Positions 4,541 through 53,653 of a stretch of 64,000 nt of DNA are shown here, piece by piece; within the stretch, counting starts at the first letter, position 1; each line of letters begins with the position of its first letter. Under the pieces are notes generated by a model. It was not told the DNA's origin. It did not search any database and was given only the letters and a program-made list of their open reading frames with translations. Position numbers and translations under genes: made by a program. The DNA is from Progne subis subis. Taxonomy: Eukaryota; Chordata; Aves; Passeriformes; Hirundinidae. The DNA is taken from positions 1 through 64,000 of the forward strand of contig JAKJHU010000671.1 of NCBI GenBank assembly GCA_022316685.1. The letters run 5' to 3'.

Positions 4541-5169
4541 CATCATTGACACCAAATAAACCATCTCGCTCTGTTTCTTTTATTTTTTAACTCGGTCCTG
4601 GTCACTCTCAGTTATCATTTTTAGAATCGCGTTTCTTTGGCAAGGCGAGGGCTGGCAGAGCCGTGCAGGTGCAAACAAAAAAGGACGAAAACCCGCAGAA
4701 ATCAGCCGTGGAAAAGGGTTCCAGCAACTCTGTGATGCTTTGGGGGAACTTCAGCCTTTGGCACTGGTTAAAGGTGCATCTAGGGCGGCTCAATTATGCT
4801 GGGCTGGGGTCTCTGGGGGTCCCAGCCCCATCCCAGGGGTGCCCAGGCAGCTCCCTCAGCATTCCTGTCGGGATAGGTGCTCTGGAGCAGGGCAATCCCC
4901 TCCTGGCTGGAGAATTCACTGAGGACAGGGACAGGAGCTTGGGAAGGGGCTTCAAAGTCAGGAAAGTGGGCAACTGGGGGACTCCTCAGGGTTTCAGCAC
5001 CCTCCCACCCTGGAGAGGGAATCCTCCAGGGTTCTGGGTTCTCCAGGGCTGTTTCCCTTGGAAACATGGAATTCTGTGGAATTCTATGGCATCTGTCATC
5101 GTGCTGGTGTCAGAGGAGCTCACAGCCCCAGCCAGGCGAGCGCATTTCTGCCTGGCTGCTGCCTTTGGA

Positions 5170-5265
5170 CACGGCTGGACGGGGCTTGGAGCACCCCGGG
5201 ACAGTGGCAGGTGTCCCTGCCACGGCAGGGCTGGCACTGCCTGGGCTTTAAGGTCCCTTCTGTAA
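5170..5265 (+). mobile_element. CR1 retrotransposon 3' tail fragment
   Basis: The order of blocks (GGGGCTTGGAGCA, GGTGTCCCTGCC, GGCAGGG, CTTTAAGGTCCCTTC) matches the conserved 3' end of avian CR1 LINEs in plus orientation. The same fragment is present inverted at about 48055-48145, so it predates the inverted duplication. Confidence 0.7.
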
Positions 5266-5575
5266 GAGTCGCTCTGAAGTTCCCCTCATTTGCCTCACGA
5301 TCATTGCGAGGACCCCAAGGACCCCACTGCAGTTCTGGCCTGCTCGAGGTGGATGCTTGCCAATCGTCTGCAGGTGCATTTTCCTGTGTCACCACGCCAC
5401 GGTGCACTGGCTTTGAGCAGTGTAATGGCAGTTTCTGTGCCTGAAGATTGCACCCGCTTCACGCTCCCTGCTTCACGACAATAGCCTATGAATTTCCCCA
5501 CCTCTTGGCCAAGGGAACTTTCTGGGGTAACTTGGTGGTCCCCCACGGAAAATCCCTCACCTGCTTCACAGCCAC

Positions 5576-6229: not shown

Positions 6230-7240
6230 TTACCGGTGCCTCAGTTGGTGTCTGGTCATGTGAGACCTCCGTGAAAAGCTCTTCCCACACTGGCGACACT
6301 CGTGGGGCCTCTCCCCGGTGTGGATGAGCCGGTGTCTGACGAGGGTGGAGTTCTGAGTGAAGCCCTTCCCACAGTCAGGACAGCGGAAGGGCCTCTCCTC
6401 TGTGTGAATCCGCTGGTGTACGAGGAGATTGGAGCTCGTGCAGAACCTCTTGCGGCATTTATCACACTCATAAGGCCTCTCCCCAGTGTGGGTCCTCTGG
6501 TGGCGGATCAGGGCCCAATTCTGTATGAAGCTCATCCCACATACATCACACTCGTGGGGCCTCTCCCCGGTGTGGATGTGCCTGTGGGTGATGAGGGTGG
6601 AGTTGAGCTTGAAGCCCTTCCCACAGTCGGGGCAGCGGAAGGGCCTCTCCTCTGTGTGTGTCTGCTGATGTTCAAGGAGCTGGGAGCTGATCAGAAACCC
6701 CTTCCCACACTCAGAACACTTGTAGGGCCTCTCCCCAGTGTGGATCCTTTGGTGTACAGTCAGGTAGCTATGGCGCCTGAAGCACTTCCCACATTCCCCA
6801 CACTTGTATGGCCGTTCCCCAGTGTGGATCTTCTGGTGCTGAGTTAGGCTGGAGCTCTCTCTGAACCTCTTCCCACATTCCCCACACTCATAGGGCCTCT
6901 CCCCTGTGTGGATCCTCTGGTGACAGATCAGCCTGGAGCTCTTCCTGAAGCTCTTCCCACATTCCCCACACTCGTAGGGCCGTTCGTCTGTGTGAATCCT
7001 CTGGTGGAGAAGCAGGTCGCTCCGCCAGCTGAAGCTCTTCGCACACCCAAAGCACTTGTGGGGCTTCTCCCCATCATGAAGCTGCTCATGGACCACCAGG
7101 TCTGAGCTCTGGCTCCATCTCTGGCCGCCTTCCTGGCACAGGGTGGCTCTTTCCTCCTCAGATCCTCGTGATCTGCTTGTGCAGTCTCTTCTCACGAGGG
7201 ATCGCCAGGACTTTTCCTCCCCGTTGGATTCCTGCCCCAT
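6230..7240 (-). CDS. C2H2 zinc-finger protein ZNF1 (ten fingers)
   Basis: This is a 336-residue frame from the ATG at 7240. It has an acidic/Arg-rich leader of about 60 residues, then ten C2H2 fingers in tandem joined by TGERP(Y/F)-type linkers. All ten keep the Cys2His2 spacing, and the last ends RHQLRHR before a TAA stop. Such proteins bind DNA in the nucleus, and the differing residues at helix positions -1, 3 and 6 imply a distinct target. The frame extends upstream with no further ATG. In the sister copies this methionine is threonine and coding begins on a separate leader exon. Here that exon has been lost at a junction near 7292, so the gene is 5'-truncated and may depend on the acquired ATG. 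No KRAB or SCAN domain is seen. Confidence 0.8.
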
Positions 7241-22753: not shown

Positions 22754-24195
<1,442 letters not shown>

Positions 24196-24290
24196 GGGAA
24201 GCCCTGCGAGTGCCCTGAGTGCAGGAAGAGCTTCGTGCTCTGCTCCAACTCCATCCCCCACTGGAGGTCCCACGTTGGGCAGAGCCCTGG
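24196..24290 (+). pseudogene. Relict finger 3' of ZNF2
   Basis: Directly after the TAA, in the same frame as the downstream fingers, codons encode CECPECRKSF…H-x3-H. It is a finger outside the present coding end, and the linker lacks the usual TGEKP form. Confidence 0.6.
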
Positions 24291-25410: not shown

Positions 25411-27965
25411 AGGGAATGCCGGGGAGTCCGTTTTGCTTTGCTGATCAGGGGTCATCCAGCGATGGGGGACTCCTTCTCAGGTCACAGCCACTAAATAAAG
25501 CTGCTTCGGCGGACCCCCGTACTTCTTGCACTGGTCTAAAATGCGACTACAGTCCTGGATTTTACTTTGGTTCCCTGCTTTTCAGAGTCTCTTGTTCTTG
25601 AGTTGTTCCCAGAATTCCAGTGTTCTTTTTATTTGCATATTCAGACACTATCCGGTGAATGCGAGCAGAGATACAGGTAATAAGGTGAATTCTTAATTAA
25701 CAAACAAGTAAATAAGGCGATAAATCAATATTAAAACAGGAATAAGGCAAATTCTTTATACAGAAATAGCATTAACAATCTTAATGGACTTACTTAACAA
25801 TTAAGTAACTAAAACATAGATTATTTGAATAGAATTTATTTATAACACAAGCACAGACTGCCTCTGTGGAGGATGGGTGTTTTCACAGAAACAAGGTGTT
25901 TTCAAGTCCAGCCATCACCCAAACACAGCTGTGTCTAAATCCAGCCCTCTCATCAGGAACAGCCAGGGCAAAAGAAATCAATCCCTCCAGCCCACTGGGG
26001 ACACTCTGGGCATTGCCCTGTATATGATAAGCTCTTATTGACATCAGGTTTCTGTTTGGAGAGTTTGGGCTCCTCTCAAATAAAAAACCAAAACCAAACA
26101 GAAAGGTAAATGCACAAAGGATCTGGCTAATCCCAAGCGCTGGTGGGCACTGAAGACCTCAAAACATTTCAGAAGGCCACACACACAGGGAATCAGCATC
26201 TCTGCGATAACTTCAGGTAGCACTCTGAATTTCTGCCATGTTTCTACTGCTTCTCAGACTCCCTTGCAAATATCAGCAGGTTCAGAGCCCAAACCCTGCA
26301 TTTTGCAAGGACTGCAAGATGAAGCTGGCAGAGGTTGCCGAGATGCAGAGGTAAAATCCAAACTCAAATGAGTCCCTTGAAGTGGCTCCCACGTGTGACT
26401 GAGGGCACTGCTTAACGAGAGCCTATCCACCCTCCCTGCAAGAACATCTATCACTGAAAACCCCAGGCTTCTGAAATAATTTGGGGAAAATCTCGGTCAT
26501 GAAGGCACTCCACCAAAGGTGGGGGCTTTCCAGGGGACATCAGCACACCTCTCAGGGTGGGCAGGGGCCTCCCTGTGCAGAGCTCTGTCTCCCAACTCGC
26601 TGAGAGAGCAGTGCGGCAAAGCCAAGATTTTGGCTGCAGCAGGAGGGTGAGCTGTGCCGAGCGAGGACCTGAATCAGAAGCCTCAGAGTGCTCAGAAAGC
26701 CCTCACAGGTAGGTATGGATCATTCCTCTTTGGTTCAGGTGCAAACAGGGCATTTCGAGTAACGTTTTGCACCCATCCTGGCTTCCTCAGGCCTTACAGA
26801 GCCCAAGGCAGCAAAGAAAGGCTTGGAAAAATCCATTCATTCCATAAAAAACAGTGTTGGGAAAGCAGGAGGTAGCAAAGCACTGGCGAAAGCACACAGT
26901 GCATATGATGTAAAATTGTTTAATTGATATACTGCAAGATATTGTTCTAATGGCAGGAGGGAGAAGAAATAATGATCACCTAACTCATTATTAATGTTCA
27001 TTTTCTTTTCCAGCATTGCCAAGTGGGTTGAGTAATTATTAAGCATGACAGCTGGTCTTTAATATATCAGCTATAGATTCCAGTCACAGCAGTCTAGTTT
27101 AATAATTGGGTTTCTTTCTCCTTCATTTTGACTAAGAGCGTACTTTTAGCAATTATTAAAATTCATCGTAGCACAAAAACAAACCATTTGAAACCTCACC
27201 AAAAATGGCAGCACAGCAGAGATCTGCTTAGCATTTAGTGGAGAATTCAAAACAGCTTCTTGGAAGACATGGAGCAGCTTCTCTGGTAACTTTTTCAACA
27301 GCCACAATGGGAACGTGGACACCCGGTGAAAGCCAAGAGTGCTCCAGGTGAGCCAAGGCAGTGTCCAATAGGCTGCTGTCACTAAAAAAGTGCATTCAGA
27401 TTGCACAGGAAATTCCCTCTGAAAATGCAAATGCACGTGTGGCTCTTTAGCTCCAGGTAGTTCAGCCAAGCCATGGCAGGTTACCAGCACAGGCAGAAGG
27501 TTGTTTTAACGCTGCATCACCAAACTGTCCTGGAGATTTCACAGTCTGCCTTGGAATGGCAGAAGGTGCCAATGGACACAGCTTCTGCTGTGAGGAACTT
27601 AAAATCCTCCTTGCTCATCTTGCGGACTCTGTAAAGACAAAGTTTAACTTCCAGCATGAGCTCATTGAGCCCAAAACCTAGAGGCATCAGGGCAGCCAGC
27701 AGAAATCCTGCACATTCCCACCGCACCAGAAAGGAAGGGCTTATTCCAGGACTGACAGTTAGGCAAGATTTTGAGGGGTGAGAGAATTAATTCTAAACTA
27801 TAGAATGAAAAGAGAAAACTTGAGAAAAGCCTGGTGTTTATAGTTCCTGGAGAAAGGACAGCAGGACTGTGAGCTCACCATGGAGGCAGCCCTGTGTGCG
27901 TGATGCAGGCATTGATACCGCTGTAGACTTGGAATCTGTCCACAAGTGAAAATAAAAGCCAGAAT
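25411..27965. other. Unique gene-poor sequence
   Basis: AT-rich single-copy sequence. Short frames on both strands show no recognisable domain or splice structure. No RNA gene seen. Confidence 0.4.
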
Positions 27966-28165: not shown

Positions 28166-29465
28166 AGTAGCTGGTTCCACAGACACCAGGAGCTGCCTCA
28201 CTCTGCAGCAGGCTGCAGGAAAACATCTGCAGAAACATGAGCCACAGAATCCACCACAGGCTCCTGCTGCACACACTGCCACACTCCTCTCAGGAGACAG
28301 CTCTCAAAAGCAGTCCCACAGTGCTCCTGCTGCCCAGGAGGAGCTGGGAAAGGGCTGTGCCCTGGCTGCAGCCTTGGCAAGAGCTCAGCAGGAGCCCTCG
28401 GCGTCACCACAGCCCAAGAGAAGGAACAAGGAGAGAATTTCTCTTTGCCCTTTGAAGCTGAGAAGTGACCAGTTTGTGTCTGAACAGCACTTCCCTCACA
28501 CCTCCCCACATTATCTAAAAGTAGGAGGCTTGGCAATTAAGCAACCCTCAGATTAATAACTGAGAAAAGCTAATGGCTGGGAAGATGCCAAAGGCTTCCC
28601 TCACAGGACCGTGGGGTGATGCGTTGTTTTGGAGCTGGCAGATAAACCAGGCCACAACCACCTCATCCCCTGGCCATCATTTAAGAGCCAGGAGGAAATG
28701 ACTGGAAGCGAGGAAACACCAATTTACTGGAAGTTTTGCTCTGGAACTCCTGTGGCACAGAGCCCCAGGCTTTCCTGCACGATGCTTTATTGTTCCACAG
28801 GCTGTTATGGCCGTGCTCAGCTGCTGCACAGCCCGTCCATCGTTCAGCTGAGCAGCCTGAGCCTGGGAACACCAGAGAACATGATCAGAGCACGGGGAAT
28901 GCTGCTCTCATCGGTGGTTCGCAGAGTTGTCTGGATAAACGAGCATCTGGGAAAAGAAACACGATGTATGTGTAATTAATCTACTTAGAACTTGTTGTAA
29001 ATTAATCATATTGAATATTAAAACTGCTTCCTAGTCTCATGTGAAACAAAAGAATTCCTCGGTGTTTTCATCTGATCTTACTAGAAATGATGACGCTGGG
29101 CTTTGCTCTCCACCTCTCCTGCTCTCACCTCTTGCACTGCCAGGAAAGTGCTAAACAATGGATTGCCAGCTCCCTGCAGCAGAGAGCTGATCTTGTGGGC
29201 CCTCTGACACACAGAGGAGGCAGTCAGAGCACCAGGCTCTTTGGAGGCTACAATCCTGTGTCTCCAGGCTGTTCACAGCAGCTGTCCCAGGTAAGAGCTG
29301 AGCAGCTGCACAGATGACCCGAGGTCCGTGGAGAGCTTTAAATCCCACAGATTTTGTTCATGTGTCAAATCTGGGCTCTGTTTCCTGTGCTCACCCCATA
29401 AACTCCACAGGTGAACTCAGTAAAAATGGCAGCGCAGAGATCCCTGCAGATCAGCTGAGTGCAGA
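28166..29465. other. Unique sequence, nothing identified
   Basis: Short open frames only. No repeat or gene recognised. Confidence 0.4.
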
Positions 29466-36372: not shown

Positions 36373-36750
36373 GGCCATGAGGTCAGAGCAGGGCTCTGAG
36401 GTCACAGCAGTGCCCTGAGGTCACAGCAGGGCTCTGAGGTCACAGCAGGCTCTGAGGTCACAGCAGGGCTCTGAGGTCACAGCAGGGCTCTGAAGTCACA
36501 GCAGGGCTCTGAGGTCACAGCAGGGCTCTGAGGTCACAGCAGGCTCTGAGGTCACAGCAGTGCTCTGAAGTCACAGCAGGCTCTGAGGTCACAGCAGGGC
36601 TCTGAGGTCACAGCAGGGCTCTGAGATCACAGCAGGGCTCTGAGGTCACAGGCTCTGAGGTCACAGCAGGCTCTGAGGTCACAGCAGGGCTCTGAGGTCA
36701 CAGCAGGGCTCTGAGGTCACAGCAGGCTCTGAGGTCACAGAGGTCCCAGA
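36373..36750 (+). repeat. 18/19-bp minisatellite of AGGTCA half-sites
   Basis: About 20 tandem copies of GAGGTCACAGCAGGGCTCT (19 bp) or the same with one G fewer (18 bp), with a few single-base variants. Each unit contains AGGTCA, the consensus nuclear-receptor half-site. The array ends about 155 bp upstream of the ATG at 36907. Confidence 0.9.
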
Positions 36751-36906: not shown

Positions 36907-39900
36907 ATGGCCCTTGCTCTGCGCCTGCTCCTCCTGCTCCTCCTGGCTGTGGCCCTGCCTGCCAGGACTGCCCAGGCTGCTCCATGGCGAGCGCAGGGAG
37001 CAGGTGAGCCGGCGGCCTGGATCCCCTTTCCCAGGACAGCGCTCCCTTCTCCCCAAGAAGCCTTGGGGCTGGTTTTGCCCCGGGCTTTAGGGAGGGTTTC
37101 CTCTGTGGAAATGAGAGAGCCCCAGGGGCCCTGGGCTGCTCCAGCCACCCCTGCAGGGATGGTGCACAGGGCCTGCAAAGAGTGTGCAGAGTGAGCAGAG
37201 CCAGCCCAGAGCTCCCCAGGCCCCTGGGCAGCTTTGGACCTGTCCATGGACATCGGCCTCCCACGGCCTTCCCCGACCCCCTGGCAGTGCCCAGTTCCCT
37301 AAGGCAGAAGGGGATCCCAGCACACATGGAAATGGTTCTCATCCGTGCTCCCTTCTAGATTGGGATCGCACCTTGCATTTTCTGGATACCATGATGAATG
37401 GCATCATGAAACTCTTGGAGAATGCTGAAGGCAAGTTCTCAGTGTGCCTTTCCTGTCACAATAATCCTGTCAGTGTGGCTAGAGCTCTCCCATGTGCCAT
37501 TTCCCTTAACATGATCTCATGGCTGAAGGGTTCCAGAAACCTTGCCCTGCTCCCTTCTGGAGCCCTGAGTGATCCCCAGGATGGCTGTCAGTGGGAGGAA
37601 GGAGCATTTAGCTGTCACTGCTCTTCCCTTGTGCAGTGCCAGGGTGTCCTTCTGTGTGCTCTGTGCAGCCACGGAGAAGAGCAGAGAGGGAAGGGGCCTG
37701 GCCCAGGGCTGTGCCCCGGGGCTGTGCCTTGTGCTGCTCCTTTGCCAGCCCCAGGGAGCCTGAGGATCTCCTATGGGAGCTCCATGGGGATCTCTTCTGT
37801 CCTGCCTTTCTTTGCAGTCAAGCCTCTTGGTGAAGGTGATCTGGATTACCAACCCACGTCCAAGACAGAGCCTCTGGGAGATGCTGAGGGTAGGTTCAAG
37901 CATTTCCCCCTGGCAGAGCTGCCAGCTCAGAGCCCACAGCACGGCCAGGGGGCATTCCTGCTGGTGCTAGGACAGAATCATGCCCATGTGTGCCCTCGCC
38001 CTGCACGATCCCCTCACCGCTCCTGCGCCTCAGTGCTACTTGTGCACATCAGCAGAGGTGACAGAAGTTTCTCTGAATGTTGAGTTACAGATGTGTCTGC
38101 AGGGAGGACTTCTCCAGCTCCTTTGCTGGTTGCTACACACAAGCCCAGCTCCCATCACAGGGGTGAGTAGTGTGGCCCTGCTGACCCCACAGGCTGAGCA
38201 CTGGCTTTGTGGGATCCATTCCTGGCAAATGGAAACTCTTTGCTCTAAGGTCCTCCGACAGGGAAATACAGAGCTACAGGACTCAAGAAACCCCAGGAGT
38301 CATCCAAACCCATGCAGCAAACGTTGAAGGAAATACTTCAGAGACAACAAGGTGGGTGCATGTCCCTGAGCCTTCTCCTGAGGCTCAGCAGTCGGGGCCT
38401 TTCTCTGCACATCTGGACACGCCGGGCCTGGCACAGCGGGAAGGGATCCATGGCAGCCTGGCTGCCCCGTGCTGCTTTCCCACCCTGCAGGGCTGTTTCC
38501 CGGCCTGGCCTGGCTGCAGCTTCTCCCCAGGCTCTGCAGGAAGGCATTTGGCATCAGCTGACAGGGAGCCCAAACTGCCCCATGGGCCATGCACACCCTG
38601 AGAGCCCCTGCCCTTCCCCTGTGTCCCAGCAGCCCAAGTGGGGCACCTCTTTGGACGAGGGAGGCTCTGGCCCAGCCCCCAGAGTTTCTGCCTTTTCCTG
38701 ATGCTTTTCAATGTCTCCAACAAGCATTGCCTCCTGTGGATGCCCACTCCCCCATGTTGAATGTTTCCATCTAATCCAGCTGTGCCTCTTCCTTTCTCAA
38801 AGAGTTGGATCAAAAGTCTGTGCCGAAGGAGGAACTTCCCGGAGGAAGCAGCAGCTCGGTGGCAGCCTCTGCTGCAGAAAGGAAGGAGATGGCAGACACA
38901 AACACAGTCACAGACGCAGAGAATGCCAGAGCAGGTAATTGCTGTGCCAGGCTCAGCCCTCTCTGGGGCTGTGTGGCAGCAGCTCTTCCCCCAGCTCCAG
39001 CCTTGCAGGGCCCCGCAGCAGCCAAAGCTGGAGGCACCTCGGCTTCGAGGCCTGCGGAGCTCGCTGACGGCCCCTGGGAAACGGGACTGGTGCCCGAGGT
39101 GCCTCCCGCTGCAGCTGCTCCCGGAGCTGGCCCTGAGCGCCCAGAGGCCCAAGGCACAGGAGCAGCCCCGAGCGGGAGCCCTGCCGCCAGCCCAGGGCCA
39201 GAGCCAGCCCTGGCTCCCGGCTGGGCAGGGGCTGCGCTGGGTCCTGACAGGGCCTGACTCCGTCCCCTCGGGCTGCCGGAGCTGTCCCACCATGGGGACA
39301 GGTGAAATGAGGGAATGTTTTGGCTCAGCCTGCTGGAGATTTTCTTGGTGCTTTATGGAGGGTTTCTTCTGTGGAAATGAGAGAGCCCCAGGGGCCCTGG
39401 GCTGCTCCAGCCACCCCTGCAGGGATGGTGCACAGGGCCTGCAAAGAGTGTGCAGAGTGAGCAGAGCCAGCCCAGAGCTCCCCAAGCCCCTGGGCAGCTT
39501 TGGCCCTGTCCGTGGACATCTGCCTCCCACGGCCTTCCCCGACCCCCTGGCAGTGCCCAGTTCCCTAAGGCAGAGGGGGATCCCAGCACACATGGAAATG
39601 GTTCTCATCTGTGCTCTCTTCTAGATTGGGAACGTGACATGGATTATCTGGAAATGATGGCGAATGGTGGTTTGAAATCAGTACCAGAGGCTGAAGGCAA
39701 GTCTGCAACACACCTTTTATGAGAGAATCATAAGTTTCAGTCCAGGACGATCTCCCCCATGTGCCATTTCCCTTAACATGATCTCAAGGCTGAAGGGTTC
39801 TGGAAACCTTGCCTTACTCCCTTCTGGAGCCCTGAGTGATCCCCAGGATGGCTGTCAGTGGGAGGAAGGAGCATTTAGCTGTCACTGCTCTTCCCGTGTG

Positions 39901-40102
39901 CAGTGCCAGGGTGTCCTTCTGTGTGCTCTGTGCAGCCACGGAGAAGAGCAGAGAGGGAAGGGGCCTGGCCCAGGGCTGTGCCCCGGGGCTGTGCCTTGTG
40001 CTGCTCCTTTGCCAGCCCCAGGGAGCCTGAGGATCTCCTATGGGAGCTCCATGGGATCTCTTCTGTCCTGCCTTTCTTTGCAGCCAAAACACTCGGTGAA
40101 GG
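36907..40102 (+). CDS. Novel multi-exon secreted-protein gene, cut by a provirus
   Basis: Proposed exons: 36907-37003, 37359-37430, 37818-37889, 38280-38351, 38803-38934, 39625-39696 and the start of one at 40084. Exon 1 has a strong Kozak ATG and encodes MALALRLLLLLLLAVALPAR, a clear signal peptide probably cleaved near TAQA. Every junction is phase 1, and four internal exons are exactly 72 nt (24 residues); one is 132 nt. Two use GC donors (G|GCAAGT). The modules are acidic and partly amphipathic, have no cysteines and match no family I recognise. A 2.27-kb unit is tandemly duplicated, so 39625 and 40084 are second copies of 37359 and 37818. The seventh exon is interrupted by an LTR at 40103 and no 3' end is seen. 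All splice sites are predictions; the 38280 exon and the AAAG acceptor at 38802 are the weakest. Confidence 0.6.
37088..40102 (+). repeat. 2.27-kb tandem duplication (two units, second truncated)
   Basis: 37088-37836 aligns with 39354-40102 at an offset of about 2266 bp. Intronic parts differ at about 3% (8 of 268 before the first exon) and 2% before the second. Unit 2 is cut by the provirus before the equivalents of 38280-38934. Confidence 0.85.
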
Positions 40103-40770
40103 TGTCCTGGTTTGGAGGCAGATTTTGGGGAAAACCCCTGTATAGGATCCCCCTGGGAAGCAAACCCAAGTGGCCCTTCCCTACAACCAGTCCAAAAAAA
40201 AAAAAACCTCATTGGAGAAAAGTGGAAAAAACTATTTTACTAAACAAATAAATCGCATGCAAGTATAAAGGATGAATAATATGAAACAATAAAACCTCTC
40301 CTTCTGGAGTGAGATGGCAAATTGAGAAAGTCCTTGCTGTGGGTGGAGCTCGGCTCTCTCTCAGTCTCTCATCAGTCCCAGTCCCTCCGGCGCTGCTGGA
40401 AAATGCCGAGGTCCAGGCCCCGGTGGGCCGCAGGTGCAGCCCCCAGTGCTCCCCTGGGTTTTCAGTCCAGAGCAGGTTTAAACAGTTCCAATAAAAAGGA
40501 AAAAAACAGTCCAGGGAACTTCTCTGCCTTTGCTAGCTGAAACTAACTAAAAGCAAAAAAAAAAAAAAAATCTCTATTCCTGCAGTCTCTCCAAGCCTCC
40601 GCCAAACACCCCGTCCGCAGAAGAATGTGGAGGAGTCAGGCAGTTTTCTCAAAACAAACTCTGCGCTTCTCCTTGCTCTTAGAACCAGTCTTAAAGGCAC
40701 AGGACTCAATATACAGCACAAACAGAACAGACGATTGGGGATACAAGCATCATAAAGTTACCCTAGGACA
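40103..40770 (-). mobile_element. 3' LTR of the ERVL-like provirus
   Basis: 668 bp on the minus strand, beginning TGTCCTAGGGTAAC and ending at the point that interrupts the seventh exon of the secreted gene. It is related to the solo LTR at 45285-45916 by start (TGTCCTRGGGTRAC) and end sequence. A purine-rich tract (TAAGGGGAGGAA, plus-strand 40771-40782) directly precedes it, as expected of a polypurine tract. Confidence 0.75.
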
Positions 40771-40782
40771 TTCCTCCCCTTA

Positions 40783-41333
40783 TCCCCATATCATCAATTT
40801 ACTAAATCTAATATATACTTGTTACCCTGGTTTTTCTGAATTTTTAAATTAGCCTTTTGAATTTCATAATGGAGTCAGATCTTTTAGCTACTGTACAATA
40901 TTAGAGCACTTTTCTACCTTTCCCACAAGATGTAACAGAAACAAATCCTTTGTTTTTCATTCTTTGTCCTTTGTTTGCATATTTCTAACCTGAAAAACAA
41001 CTGTAACTGACAGTTGGTCTGGCCACTGAGGCTGAGGGGTGGAAACCCCAAAAGGCCAATCTTCAACTAGACCCACAAATGTATAAAAAGTAAAGAATAA
41101 ACAAAGAGGCTCCCTTCCTCTTCCGCCTCTCTCCGCTCTCGGAGCAGTGAGCTGGAATCTGAAGGACCTCTGCATTGCAAAGATAACCTTGTCTACACGT
41201 GATTGCTTTGTGTGTCTCGGTGACATATACTCTAGCTCTACACACACATACATCTATATAAAAACAACATGCAATATACAACTACATACAGTGGCAGTAC
41301 CATTCAGCACACAGCAATAATTACACACGGTTC
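40783..41333 (-). mobile_element. Provirus 3' region without env
   Basis: Between the integrase stop and the polypurine tract lie about 550 bp with no envelope-like frame. Absence of env fits an ERVL-type (class III) element, though decay cannot be excluded. Confidence 0.5.
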
Positions 41334-42581
41334 TCACCCAACAATCAAATCTCCCTGGGGTACACATCGTGTGGTTCCATCTTTCTGCATTACCCACCAT
41401 GTGCAGCCTGGTCCCTGAGCAAAGACAATCCCACGGATGGGATCCTCTGTACTTGAAGCAGAATTGATCCAAACGGTCTTCCCTAACAAACCTCTTACCT
41501 GTACTACTGGGACTTTCTCTCCATCTACTGTATGTAGGGACTCAGATTGGGCGGGACCTGCTCGGCTGGTGGAACCTCGGGTGTTAACTAACCAGGTGGC
41601 CTTTGCTAAATTAATCTCCCAGTTCTTGAAAGTCCCCCCACCCAGTGCCTTCAAAGTGGTTTTAAGCAGGCCATTGCACCGTTCAACTTTCCCGGCTGCT
41701 GGCGCATGATAAGGAATATGGTACACCCACTCAATGCCATGTTCTCTAGCCCAGGTGTTTATAAGGCTGTTCTTGAAATGAGTCCCGTTGTCAGACTCAA
41801 TCCTCTCAGGGGTACCATGTCTCCACAGGATTTGCTTTTCAAGGCCCAGGATGGTGTTCCGGGCAGTAGCGTGAGGCACAGGGTAGGTCTCCAACCATCC
41901 AGTGGTGGCTTCCACCATGGTCAGCACATAGCGCTTGCCTTGGCGGGTTTGGGGAAGGGTGATGTAGTCAATCTGCCAGGCTTCCCCGTACTTATACTTG
42001 GACCATCGCCCACCATACCACAGGGGCTTCACCCGCTTGGCCTGTTTGATGGCAGCACACGTCTCACAGTCATGGATAACCTGAGAAATACTGTCCATGG
42101 TTAGATCCACCCCTCGGTCTCGTGCCCACATATAGGTGGCATCTCTGCCCTGATGGCCCGAGGCATCATGGGCCCATCGAGCTAGGAACAACTCTCCCTT
42201 GTGTTGCCAATCTAAGTCTATCTTTGACACCTCTATCTTTGCAGCCTGATCTACCTGCTCGTTGTTTCGGTGCTCCTCATTAGCCTGGCTCTTGGGGACA
42301 TGGGCATCTACATGAGGGACTTTGACAGGTAGCTTCTCTACCCTAGTGGCAATGTCCTTCCACTCATCTGCAGCCCAGACTGGCTTTCCCCTACGCTGCC
42401 AATTGGCCTTTTTCCACCTGTCTAGCCAACCCCACAGAGCATTGGCCACCATCCACGAATCAGTGTAGAGGTAGAGCTTTGGCCACTTCTCTCTTTCAGC
42501 AATGTCTAGGGCCAGTTGAACAGCTCTGAGTTCAGCAAGTTGGCTTGACCCACCTTCTCCTTCAGTGGCTTCTGCAACCTG
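41334..42581 (-). pseudogene. pol: ERV pol, integrase and end of RNase H
   Basis: Open from the opal codon at 42582-42584 to the stop at 41334. It contains the end of RNase H (YTDSW motif), an HHCC zinc-binding module (H-x4-H … C-x2-C) and an integrase core with Asp in QIDYITLP, Asp in ESDNGTHF and Glu in GKVERCNG, i.e. the D,D-35-E triad. The integrase part is intact. It would insert proviral DNA, but upstream stops prevent a full polyprotein. Confidence 0.85.
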
Positions 42582-42584
42582 TCA

Positions 42585-42920
42585 TGTGGGGCTCCATACA
42601 GCTGCTTTCCACTTCCGGTTCATCCCTACAATGTGGCAGGAACTGTCAGTGAAAAGAGCATAGCGTGTTTCTTCTGCTGGCAGTTGCTTGTATGGTGAAC
42701 CTTATTCGGCACATGTCACTTGTTCCTGCTCCTCTTCATCTGTGAGTCCAAAGTTTTCACCTTCCGGCCAGTTTGTAATTATTTCCAAAATCCCAGGGCG
42801 ATTTGGGTTTCCAATGCAGGCACGCTGAGTGATGAGGGCAATCCATTTGCTCCATGTGGCGTCGGTGGCATGATGGGTGGAGGGAACCTTTCCTTTAAAC
42901 ATCCACCCCAGCACCGGTAG
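42585..42920 (-). pseudogene. pol: ERV pol, connection/RNase H segment with stops
   Basis: In frame with the RT upstream and integrase downstream but broken by TGA at 42921-42923, TAA at 42702-42704 and TGA at 42582-42584. An RNase H-like start (TDSSC) is recognisable. The three breaks show the element is not autonomous. Confidence 0.75.
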
Positions 42921-44174
42921 TCAAGGTGCCAGCAGGAGTTGTGTTTCAGTGCCTACTACTTCTGAGGCAGCTTGAACTCCTTCATAGGCGGCCAAGATTT
43001 CCTTCTCTGTTGGAGTATAGTTGGCTTCGGACCCTCTGTAGCTTCGGCTCCAGAATCCCAGTGGTCGGCCCCGAGTCTCCCCAGGCACCTTCTGCCAAAG
43101 GCTCCAGGACAGGCCATTGTTCCCGGCTGCTGAGTAGAGCACGTTCTTCACATCTGGTCCCGTCCTGACTGGGCTAAGGGCTACTGCATGAGCGATTTCC
43201 TGCTTGATCTGGGCAAAGGCTTGTTGCTGTTCAGGGCCCCAGTGGAAATCGTTCTTCTTGCGGGTGACCAGGTAGAGAGGGCTCACAATCTGGCTGTACT
43301 CAGGAATGTGCATCCTCCAGAAACCTATGGCGCCTAGGAAAGCTTGTGTTTCCTTCTTGCTGGTTGGTGGAGACATTGCTGTGATCTTATTAATGACCTC
43401 AGTGGGAATCTGCCGCCGTCCATCTTGCCACTTTACTCCCAGGAACTGGATCTCTCGGGCAGGTCCCTTGACCTTGCTCTGCTTGATGGCAAAACCAGCT
43501 TTCAGGAGAATTTGGATGATCTTCTCTCCTTTCTCAAACACTTCCATTGCCGTGTTCCCCCACACAATGATGTCATCGATATACTGTAGGTGCTCCGGAG
43601 CCTCACCCTTTTCCAGTGCAGCCTGGATCAGTCCATGGCAGATGGTGGGGCTGTGTTTCCACACCTGGGGCAGTCGGTTCCAGGTGTACTGCACGCCCCT
43701 CCAGGTGAAAGCAAACTGAGGCCTGCATTTTGCAGCCAGAGGAATGGAGAAAAATGCATTAGCAATGTCAATTGTGGCGTACCATTTTGCTGCCTTGGAC
43801 TCCAGCTCGTACTGGAGTTCCAGCATGTCCGGCACAGCAGCGCTCAATGGTGGAGTCACTTCGTTCAAGGCACGGTAGTCCACAGTCAATCTCCATTCTC
43901 CGTCAGACTTGCGCACAGGCCAGATGGGGCTGTTGAAGGGTGAGTGGGTTTTGCTGACCACCCCTTGGCTCTCCAGCTCACGGATCATCTTGTGGATGGG
44001 GATCACGGCATCTCGATTTGTCCGGTACTGTCGGCGGTGCACCGTCGAGGTGGCAACTGGAACTCGTTGCTCTTCTACCTTTAGGAGTCCTACTGCAGAT
44101 GGGTTCTCCGACAGTCCAGGCAAGCTATTCAATTTCTTAATGCCCTCTGCCTCCACAGCTGCTATTCCAAAAGC
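42921..44174 (-). pseudogene. pol: ERV pol, reverse transcriptase
   Basis: About 410 residues of reverse transcriptase with palm Asp in IDIANAFFSIPL, catalytic YIDD, and thumb/connection regions (FLGVKWQDGRR, KKETQAFLGAIGFWR). The usual LPQG motif reads LPQV. The part is open but ends at TGA 42921-42923. The enzyme would copy proviral RNA in a Gag particle. An in-frame TAG at 44175-44177 separates it from the protease. Confidence 0.85.
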
Positions 44175-47737: not shown

Positions 47738-48785
47738 AATTCTACAGGAGAACTTAACCCTCAAAAGGGATTTTCCGTGGGAGACCACCAGAGTTACCCC
47801 AGAAAGTTCACTTGGCCAAGAGGTGGGGAAATTCATAGGCTATTGTCATGAAGCAGGGAGCGTGAAGCGGGTGCAATCTTCAGGCACACAAACTGCCATT
47901 ACACTGCTCAAAGCCAGTGCACCGTGGTGTGGTGACACAGGAAAATGCACCTGCAGACGATTGGCAAGCACCCACCTCGAGCAGGCCAGAACTGCAGTGG
48001 GGTCCTCGGGGTCCTCGCAATGATCGTGAGGCAAATGAGGGGAACTTCAGAGCGACTCTTACAGAAGGGACCTTAAAGCCCAGGCAGTGCCAGCCCTGCC
48101 ATGGCAGGGACACCTGCCACTGTTCCGGGGTGCTCCAAGCCCCGTCCAGCCGTGTCCAAAGGCAGCAGCCAGGCAGAAATGCGCTCGCCTGGCTGGGGCT
48201 GTGAGCTCCTCTGACACCAGCATGATGACAGATGCCATAGAATTCCATAGAATTCCATGTTTCCAAGGGAAACTGCCCCGGAGAGCCCCAGAATCCTGGA
48301 GGATTCCCTCCCCAGGGCAGGAGGGTACTGAAACGCTGAGGAGCCCCCAGTTGCCCACTTTCCTGACTTTGAAGCCCCTTCCCAAGCTCCTGTCCCTGTC
48401 CTCAGTGAATTCTCCAGCCAGGAGGGGATTGCCCTGCTCCAGAGCGGCTATCCTGACAGGAATGCAGAGGGAGCTGCCTGGATACCCCTGGGATGGGGCT
48501 GGGACCCCCAGAGACCCCAGCCCAGCATAATTGAGCCGCCCTAGATGCACCTGTAACCAGTGCCAAAGGCTGAAATTCCCCCAAAGCATCACAGAGTTGC
48601 TGGAACCCTTTTCCCACGGCTGATTTCTGCGGGTTTTCCTCCTTTTTTGTTCGCACCTGCACGGCTCTGCCAGCCCTCGCCTTGCCAAAGAAATGCAATT
48701 CTCAAAAATGATAACTGAGAGTGACCAGGACCAAGTTAAAAAATAACAGAAACAGGGCGAGATGGTTTATTTGGTGTCAATGATG

Positions 48786-52604: not shown

Positions 52605-53653
52605 TCATGTGAGACCTCCGTGAAAAGCTCTTCCCACACTGGGGACACTCGTGGGGCCTCCCCCAGTGTGGATGCGCCGGTGGGTGGAGAGCGTGGAGTT
52701 CCGTGTGAAACCCTTCCCACAGTCGGGGCAGCGGAAGGGCCTCTCCTCTGTGTGTGTCTGCTGATGTTCAAGGAGCTTGGAGCTGGTCAGAAACCCCATC
52801 CCACACTCAGAACACTTGTAGGGCCTCTCCCCAGTGTGGATCCTTTGGTGCATGGTCAGGTAGCTACGGCGCCTGAAACACTTCCCACATTCCCCACACT
52901 TGTATGGCCGTTCCCCAGTGTGGATCTTCTGGTGCTGGGTTAGGTTGGAGCTCTGTCTGAACCTCTTCCCACATTCTCCACACTCATAGGGCCTCTCCCC
53001 AGTGTGGATCCTCTGGAGGCAGATAAGGCTGGAGCTGTGGCTGAAGCTCTTCCCACATTCCCCACACTCATAGGGCCGTTCGTCTGTGTGAATCCTCTGG
53101 TGGAGAAGCAGGTCGCTCCGCCAGCTGAAGCTCTTTGCACACCCAAAGCACTTGTGGGGCTTCTCCCCATCATGAAGCTGCTCATGGACCACCAGGTCTG
53201 AGCTCTGGCTCCATCTCTGGCCGCCTTCCTGGCACAGGGTGGCTCTTTCCTCCTCAGATCCTCGTGATCTGCTTTTGCAGTCTCTTCTCACGAGGGATCG
53301 CCAGGACTTTTCCTCCCCGTTGGATTCCTGCCCCGTGGAGCCGCTCAAAACGGCCTCTTCCACGAGGATCTGCCGTGGGGATTTGTCCTCCCTGGTCTCC
53401 ATGCTCAGCTCCTTGTCTGGGGGAGGAAGGACAAGGAGAGGATGGGATTTGCCTCCGTGCCAGAGGGAAGGGGAAGGAGATCCCCTCAGTGCGTCCCCGG
53501 CAGGACGGCGTCGGCTGCGGGGTTGTCCTGCAGCCGGGGCCATGCTGGGCTGGGAGATGGAGCAGGAGAGAGGGGGAAAGGGGCACTGACTTCCTCCTCA
53601 CCTGCCTGGCTGTCCTGGGGCACCTTCCTCTTCCTCACAGCCTCCTCCTCCAT
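52605..53653 (-). CDS. C2H2 zinc-finger gene ZNF3, shortened
   Basis: The leader exon codes from ATG 53653 down to 53602 (exon to 53684). A 185-bp GT-AG intron follows, then the finger exon 53416-52605, giving 287 residues. Six finger modules remain. Finger 2 has Leu in place of its first zinc-binding His (SLICLQRIH), so it probably does not fold. One base is missing in the linker after finger 6, replacing the last finger with a 20-residue tail and stop. Compared with copies A and B a block of three fingers is missing, bounded by two [14 protein letters not shown] fingers as expected from unequal recombination. It would be a nuclear DNA-binding protein if expressed. It is open throughout but may be decaying. 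Confidence 0.7.

Follow-up and report, generated by a model that had tools for sequence, protein, structure and literature searches.

Old exon classes between homogenised introns probably explain an exon/intron contrast in a modular gene family of Progne subis

This study concerns a gene with repeated short exons on contig JAKJHU010000671.1 of Progne subis subis (assembly GCA_022316685.1). The window is the whole stretch analysed, positions 1 to 64,000 of that contig. A signal-peptide exon is followed there by one complete unit of five exons, named A, B, V, C and D, and by the beginning of a second unit (A' and B'), which is cut by an endogenous retroviral element. The features are listed below; RT denotes reverse transcriptase and ORF an open reading frame.

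36378..36740, forward strand: 19-bp minisatellite TGAGGTCACAGCAGGGCTC, 19.6 copies, upstream of the signal exon
36907..37003, forward strand: exon 1, the signal-peptide exon (MALALRLLLLLLLAVALPARTAQAAPWRAQGA)
37086..37358, forward strand: end of the pre-A intron of unit 1, putatively homogenised, 9/273 differences from unit 2
37359..37430, forward strand: exon A, class A1, 72 nt, phase 1, GC donor
37431..37483, forward strand: intron start within the divergent A block, 23/53 differences
37484..37817, forward strand: A-B intron, putatively homogenised, 8/333 differences
37818..37889, forward strand: exon B, 72 nt, phase 1
38091..38162, forward strand: exon V, 72 nt, phase 1, absent from the first-pass annotation of this sequence
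38262..38351, forward strand: exon C, 90 nt, phase 1
38803..38934, forward strand: exon D, 132 nt, phase 1
39352..39624, forward strand: end of the pre-A' intron of unit 2, putatively homogenised
39625..39696, forward strand: exon A', class A2, 72 nt, phase 1, GC donor
39697..39748, forward strand: class-A2 intron start, within the divergent block
39749..40083, forward strand: A'-B' intron, putatively homogenised
40084..40102, forward strand: exon B', first 19 nt only, cut by the retroviral element
40103..44156, reverse strand: part of the endogenous retroviral element interrupting B', up to the end of the RT ORF; the start at 40103 is inferred

Read across the signal exon, A, B, V, C, D and A', the sequence kept one open frame, which ends at a stop shortly after the retroviral element begins. 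The exons of the unit, from A to D, are all phase 1, with lengths of 72, 72, 72, 90 and 132 nt, so that skipping or adding exons keeps this frame. Our first gene model, which missed V, also contained a sixth coding exon at 39001-39257. This stretch is now thought to be intron, since relatives of the gene run past D into further units and one related protein, P0018, reads through it.

The two A exons were aligned and compared with their surroundings. They differed at 27/72 sites (37.5%; 13 transitions and 14 transversions), and 10 of the 24 residues were identical. In contrast, the introns beside them were nearly the same, with 9/273 differences upstream and 8/333 (2.4%) downstream of a 53-nt block that directly follows the exon. 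In this block 23/53 sites differed. Both the exon (27/72 versus 17/606 in the flanks; Fisher test, p = 6.5e-18) and the 53-nt intron tail (p = 1.4e-17) were far more divergent than the flanks, and the start of the B pair (37818-37836 versus 40084-40102) differed at 5 of 19 nt. Both A copies keep an AG acceptor, a GC donor (GCAAGT), phase 1 and the length of 72 nt, and the same is true of nearly all further A exons examined. Our counts agree to within one or two with those of the first-pass annotation, which had reported about 27 differences in 72 nt, 8/268 in the preceding intron, 5/19 in the next exon pair, about 2% in the 288 bp before that pair, about half of the 24 residues matching, a kept frame, phase and splice sites with GC donor, and divergence reaching some 60 bp into the following intron. 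That annotation took the pattern for accelerated exon evolution in a secreted protein after a 2.27-kb tandem duplication, with gene conversion of the flanks or cassette exchange as its caveat.

Modules of the gene were located in about 200 kb of the same genome. The loci were picked by similarity to exon A1, and the genome search scored 40 places and listed 40; the copy numbers are lower bounds. The family plan is a signal exon, two to five A-B-V-C-D units and then a transmembrane exon, and some units lack at least one exon. Several genes lie in tandem within clusters named K1-K4, and their introns can be aligned from unit to unit and from gene to gene. With its signal exon MALALRL...AQAAP and its phase-1 A/B/V/C/D exons, the window gene shows these two traits of the family. 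The A-to-A spacing in K1-K4 was mostly 2.1-2.3 kb and in places 1.6-1.7 kb. The 2.27-kb step thus stands as one repeat period, and a lone recent duplication of that length is ruled out by the recurrence of the spacing. The GC donor GCAAGT (37431 and 39697 in the window) was seen in nearly every unit and class, K3 included.

Altogether 57 units were found, and 40 were classed and compared. Left out were 12 units of K3, which were analysed apart, one with an incomplete upstream flank, two with other A types and two of locus K5, a near-duplicate of the window. Outside K3, 44 A exons were comparable, and 42 of them fell into three classes (A1, 17; A2, 19; A4, 6). Copy 1 in the window belongs to A1 and copy 2 to A2. 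Among the 40 units, exons of the same class diverged about as little as their two flanks for A1 (0.067; flanks 0.059 and 0.036) and A2 (0.054; flanks 0.051 and 0.055), and somewhat more than them for A4 (0.101; flanks 0.057 and 0.059). Between classes, the exons were far apart while the flanks stayed close: 0.392 for A1/A2 (flanks 0.065 and 0.048), 0.438 for A2/A4 (0.057 and 0.062) and 0.246 for A1/A4 (0.068 and 0.053). The exon was more than twice as divergent as its flanks in 492/492 between-class pairs, compared with 53/288 within-class pairs. A sliding-window comparison, which the first-pass annotation had proposed, gave sharp edges. In 12-column windows the A1/A2 divergence was 0.01-0.04 before the exon, rose to 0.19 in the first exon window and then to 0.29-0.70, except for 0.00 at the conserved donor and 0.00 at the block end; it fell again some 54 nt past the exon, to 0.03-0.11. 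Flank divergence was therefore low whatever the exon class, as in an island of divergence, with a partial class signal in the introns that is described below. In the separate cluster K3, the upstream side behaved similarly (flank 0.068-0.129, exon 0.34-0.42).

The classes were also looked for in bird proteins, as the annotation had suggested. All three recurred in protein predictions of Hirundo (A1 at 21/25, A2 at 25/25 and A4 at 19/25 residues), whose modules matched the other classes at only 8-13/25, and the A4 class was found in Vidua at 17/25 residues. In Hirundo gene predictions, exon 2' and the start of its intron were nearly the same (30/32 residues). None of the Hirundo proteins compared had an exact full match in the loci fetched, which are a small part of the 1.17-Gb genome, and the best family stretches reached about 91-94%.

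On this evidence, the A-exon classes appear to be old lineages and the introns the young part of the gene. We consider it quite probable that old, distinct A blocks lying between homogenised introns explain the exon/intron contrast. The A exon and about 53 nt of the next intron come as a few discrete classes, and the surrounding introns differ by about 5-6% irrespective of class. Gene conversion, unequal crossing-over or both, among units and among genes, would keep these introns alike. The A blocks would be spared by selection against conversion into them, by heterology that halts the tracts, or by both. Since homogenisation would end at the block edge, the old differences of the exons stand out against young-looking introns, and the window pair would be simply one A1 block and one A2 block in two such units. 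The caveat of the first-pass annotation fits this evidence.

The contrast of 27/72 with 17/606 could instead be produced by positive selection speeding the exons after a recent 2.27-kb duplication. To this idea one may add that dN, the nonsynonymous divergence, exceeded the synonymous divergence, dS, between A1 and A4 (0.33 versus 0.18; dN/dS 1.80), and that V exons had a dN/dS of 1.46, which rose to 1.51 when one frameshifted copy was dropped. The ratios for the A classes come from 30 copies of K1, K2 and K4, clusters which also hold some frameshifted exons. However, dS was larger than dN in the window pair (0.82 versus 0.47; dN/dS 0.57), and the adjacent intron was as divergent as the exon. 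Recent change driven by selection should leave synonymous sites quiet; these sites were nearly saturated for A1/A2 (dS 1.25, dN 0.46, dN/dS 0.37) and for A2/A4 (dS 1.49, dN/dS 0.38), which fits old exon lineages. Exons of one class differ at nearly the intron rate, and exon A1 was identical over all 72 nt at 10 (the window counted) of the 40 listed places in the genome. The recurrence of the classes in Hirundo, and the spread of the repeat period over K1-K4 rather than in one recent duplication, also argue against it. Acceleration of the venom type would show dN above dS and an excess confined to coding sequence, and neither was seen in the window pair or, for the ratio, in A1/A2. We therefore regard accelerated exon evolution as very improbable here. 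A dN/dS near 1 had been named in the annotation as a finding that would tell against acceleration; the ratio was indeed near 1 within classes A1 and A2, and it was not so between A1 and A2.

Several results weigh against old blocks between homogenised introns; those on the introns themselves point both ways. In K1, intron divergence was similar for the same and for different genes and classes (pre-A, 0.046-0.067; A-B, 0.065-0.070), which fits continuing exchange among units. A GENECONV-like run test was then applied to three introns (A-B, pre-A and B-V). Only 2/442 pairs of the A-B intron reached significance at a global p of 0.005, both of them between classes, and globally significant pairs numbered 0/452 in pre-A and 0/268 in B-V; at a pairwise p of 0.05 or less there were 59, 44 and 2 pairs in A-B, pre-A and B-V. 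The signal of conversion tracts in the introns is thus weak. In addition, the nearest intron neighbour in another cluster shared the A class at frequencies of 0.72 (pre-A) and 0.56 (A-B) among the 40 units, compared with 0.36 and 0.37 expected from shuffled labels, which suggests that mixing of the introns is incomplete. Recent amplification could be another source of young introns. In K3, the downstream flank diverged by 0.60-0.63 for types x/y and x/z and by 0.16 for y/z; these flanks may not correspond, because type x there has no following B exon. As for age, the best matches outside Hirundo were 12/25 for A1 and 16/25 for A2, so that an origin beyond swallows rests on A4. The A1/A4 consensus comparison gave 13 nonsynonymous changes to 1 synonymous change, which was not significant (p = 0.44). 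Finally, dN/dS within classes was 1.19 for A1, 1.08 for A2 and 0.42 for A4 (15 pairs), and the values near 1 for A1 and A2 give little sign of purifying selection acting on A exons now.

These within-class values, together with a class order that differs among genes, are what a neutral process would leave, in which diverged blocks resist conversion by heterology and unequal crossing-over shuffles them with no selection on the classes. Against this, the between-class ratios of 0.37-0.38 (A1/A2 and A2/A4) imply past constraint. The other exons of the unit bear on the same question. Compared with 0.028-0.085 for introns, divergence was higher in B (0.143), C (0.112) and D (0.114); V (0.086) was not clearly above the introns. 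The dN/dS was 0.71 for B (0.72 before frameshifted copies were dropped), 0.94 for C and 0.83 for D (16 in-frame exons). At about 11-14% apart, exons B, C and D should still be convertible, and their excess over the introns leans towards selection keeping units different. Selection for distinct A classes is plausible, although the within-class ratios near 1 for A do not point to it. By our own estimates, selection stands at about an even chance of being what protects the A blocks, and a heterology barrier acting alone, like the neutral process as a whole, is a possibility to which we give a minor but real share of belief.

The discrete blocks with sharp edges, the many donor loci and the variable class order would also be expected if the A2 block had been copied from another gene into a duplicated A1 unit. 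A4 was first in three of the four K1 genes and last in three genes of K2 and K4, and in one K1 gene A2 preceded A1. Nevertheless, A1 was directly followed by A2 in 8/10 genes or part-genes of K1, K2 and K4, so no single recent swap is needed for the window pair. Such a cassette exchange is rather unlikely in our opinion. An assembly artefact, with collapsed or chimeric repeats, might be suspected in a large family of near-identical members, and window unit 1 matched contig C2658 at 99-100% in every intron anchor, which suggests that C2658 may be a duplicate contig. But A1 and A2 blocks were found in units on several contigs and also in proteins of another record, and we give an artefact hardly any credence. 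Old distinct blocks between homogenised introns remain our preferred explanation.

The second unit of the window gene is broken off by the retroviral element, which starts inside B' at about 40103; the B' frame runs on to a stop at 40143-40145. The minus strand carries the integrase ORF (41334-42452) and the RT ORF (42921-44156) of the element, and further minus-strand ORFs, whose membership in it is not established, extend to about 47167. Of the 23 loci or clusters examined, 18 had the same junction between B' and the retrovirus, on contigs of 39 to 266 kb; this is a share among loci chosen by A1 similarity, not a genome-wide one. Among the other five, K1, K3 and K4 lacked the junction, as did the retrieved part of C78, and the piece of C1478 stops short of it. 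Thirteen loci (L029-L041) and the pieces of C2002 and C1478 served only for this check, and those bearing the junction also entered the comparison of retrovirus-interrupted copies. The junction shared by 18 loci indicates that the disrupted gene and the adjoining retroviral sequence were amplified as one, and these sequences are most simply explained by a single insertion that preceded the amplification. The GC dinucleotide was present at the donor of both A exons in all 18 copies.

Among these 18 copies, divergence was 1.4-2.6% in exons A to D and A' and 0.5-5.7% in introns, which gives no hint that the exons are constrained. In this comparison V was judged by length only, and signal exon sequence was lacking for most copies. 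At least one examined exon was frameshifted in 10/18 copies, and the other 8, the window among them, were open across the examined exons. The first-pass annotation had regarded stops in orthologues as evidence against its reading; frameshifts are indeed frequent in these near-identical copies, but they are paralogues and not orthologues. As the element supplies the stop and the gene strand has AATAAA at 40247 and 40288, a short predicted protein without membrane anchor is possible from the window copy. This copy is a truncated, probably non-functional member of the amplified, retrovirus-interrupted lineage.

The minisatellite motif was also found upstream of relatives, in fewer copies. Within 900 bp upstream, GAGGTCACAG occurred in 4-7 copies at ten signal exons of K1, K2 and K4 and in 16-25 copies in the window, K5, K6 and K7. 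It was expanded in four of the five retrovirus-bearing copies with signal exon sequence; the fifth (K2, 31368) had 4. The 19-bp unit of the window array (36378-36740) contains AGGTCA, a nuclear-receptor half-site motif. Elsewhere in the window, an inverted repeat of 96% identity joins 47766-48500 and 4824-5557, and repeat arrays resembling zinc fingers occupy 6276-7073, 23336-24252 and 52777-53135. An open frame at 28782-28964 was 96.7% identical to residues 2-62 of the Hirundo protein P0013 and is apparently unrelated to the modular family.

Public proteins were searched with the spliced window reading, which found 44 relatives, and with the relative P0029, which gave 162 matches, 120 of them listed. 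About 8,000 candidates were scored in each search, and the counts of relatives are lower bounds. The first of these searches, like those of Pfam and the Protein Data Bank, used a provisional protein that lacked V and included the doubtful sixth exon. The species-named matches among those listed belong to 19 genera of passerines (oscines plus manakins); P0018 carries no name. Nearly all listed relatives are unnamed LOC proteins, and P0097 is labelled mucin-4-like. Pfam gave no match for the window protein, and of five relatives scanned, two had no match and three matched only below the curated cut-offs; relatives P0028 and P0070 carry precomputed Pfam labels. In the Protein Data Bank the window protein had only two chance-level matches (E 0.63 and 0.95), and the structure prediction of relative P0015 was poor (mean predicted local distance difference test score, pLDDT, 51.3; predicted template modelling score, pTM, 0.26). 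No transmembrane exon was found on the gene strand in the 64-kb window of the 133,603-base contig with two transmembrane modules as queries; a weak module match (47%) was on the opposite strand, upstream at 27001. The annotation's description of a secreted protein is right only in part, as the element interrupts this copy before any such exon and full-length relatives have a transmembrane exon at the C-terminal end. We did not recognise the family in the literature searched, judged by titles and abstract openings; songbird-unique genes are treated in one paper in this literature (PMC4377847). These results suggest that the predicted type I membrane proteins form a passerine family that has apparently not been described.

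Known systems offer partial parallels. In exon 5 of the human and macaque red/green opsin genes, introns homogenised by conversion flank a divergence peak over a maintained exon (PMC3924837), much as around the A block. The opsin case has two genes, one exon and a known function, whereas here there are many units, within and between genes, and at least three classes, and about 53 nt of intron belong to the peak. Bovine CEACAM32, compared with CEACAM1, also belongs to a surface-protein family, as predicted here, and was treated with GENECONV support and a selection analysis (PMC7042247); it has an immunoglobulin domain, in contrast to the passerine family with no recognised domain and weak run-test support. 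Nearest to the accelerated-exon idea is the accelerated segment switch in exons (ASSET) of snake three-finger toxins, in which exon segments are swapped for distinctly different ones (PMC2474615). As in the A block, conserved intron segments adjoin exon segments that differ sharply among paralogues. However, exon segments are exchanged in ASSET, and here whole exons of recurring classes go together with adjoining intron sequence. The phenomenon thus appears to be known in kind from opsin exon 5 and CEACAM32, and the gene family itself appears undescribed.

A large ratio of exon to intron divergence would naively be read as strong positive selection. Our results suggest that it can stem from homogenised, young-looking introns and not from fast exons. 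More speculatively, and with only a small chance of being right, the family might work as a modular surface-protein kit, in which near-identical introns would be recombination platforms that keep and reorder phase-matched old exon classes, and in which an amplified, retrovirus-made short form without anchor would be added, some of its copies still being open. In conclusion, passerines seem to possess a large gene family that has neither a name nor a recognised domain. Its many predicted isoforms and its tandem clusters offer dozens of natural replicates within one genome, on which conversion, selection and exon shuffling may be measured against each other.

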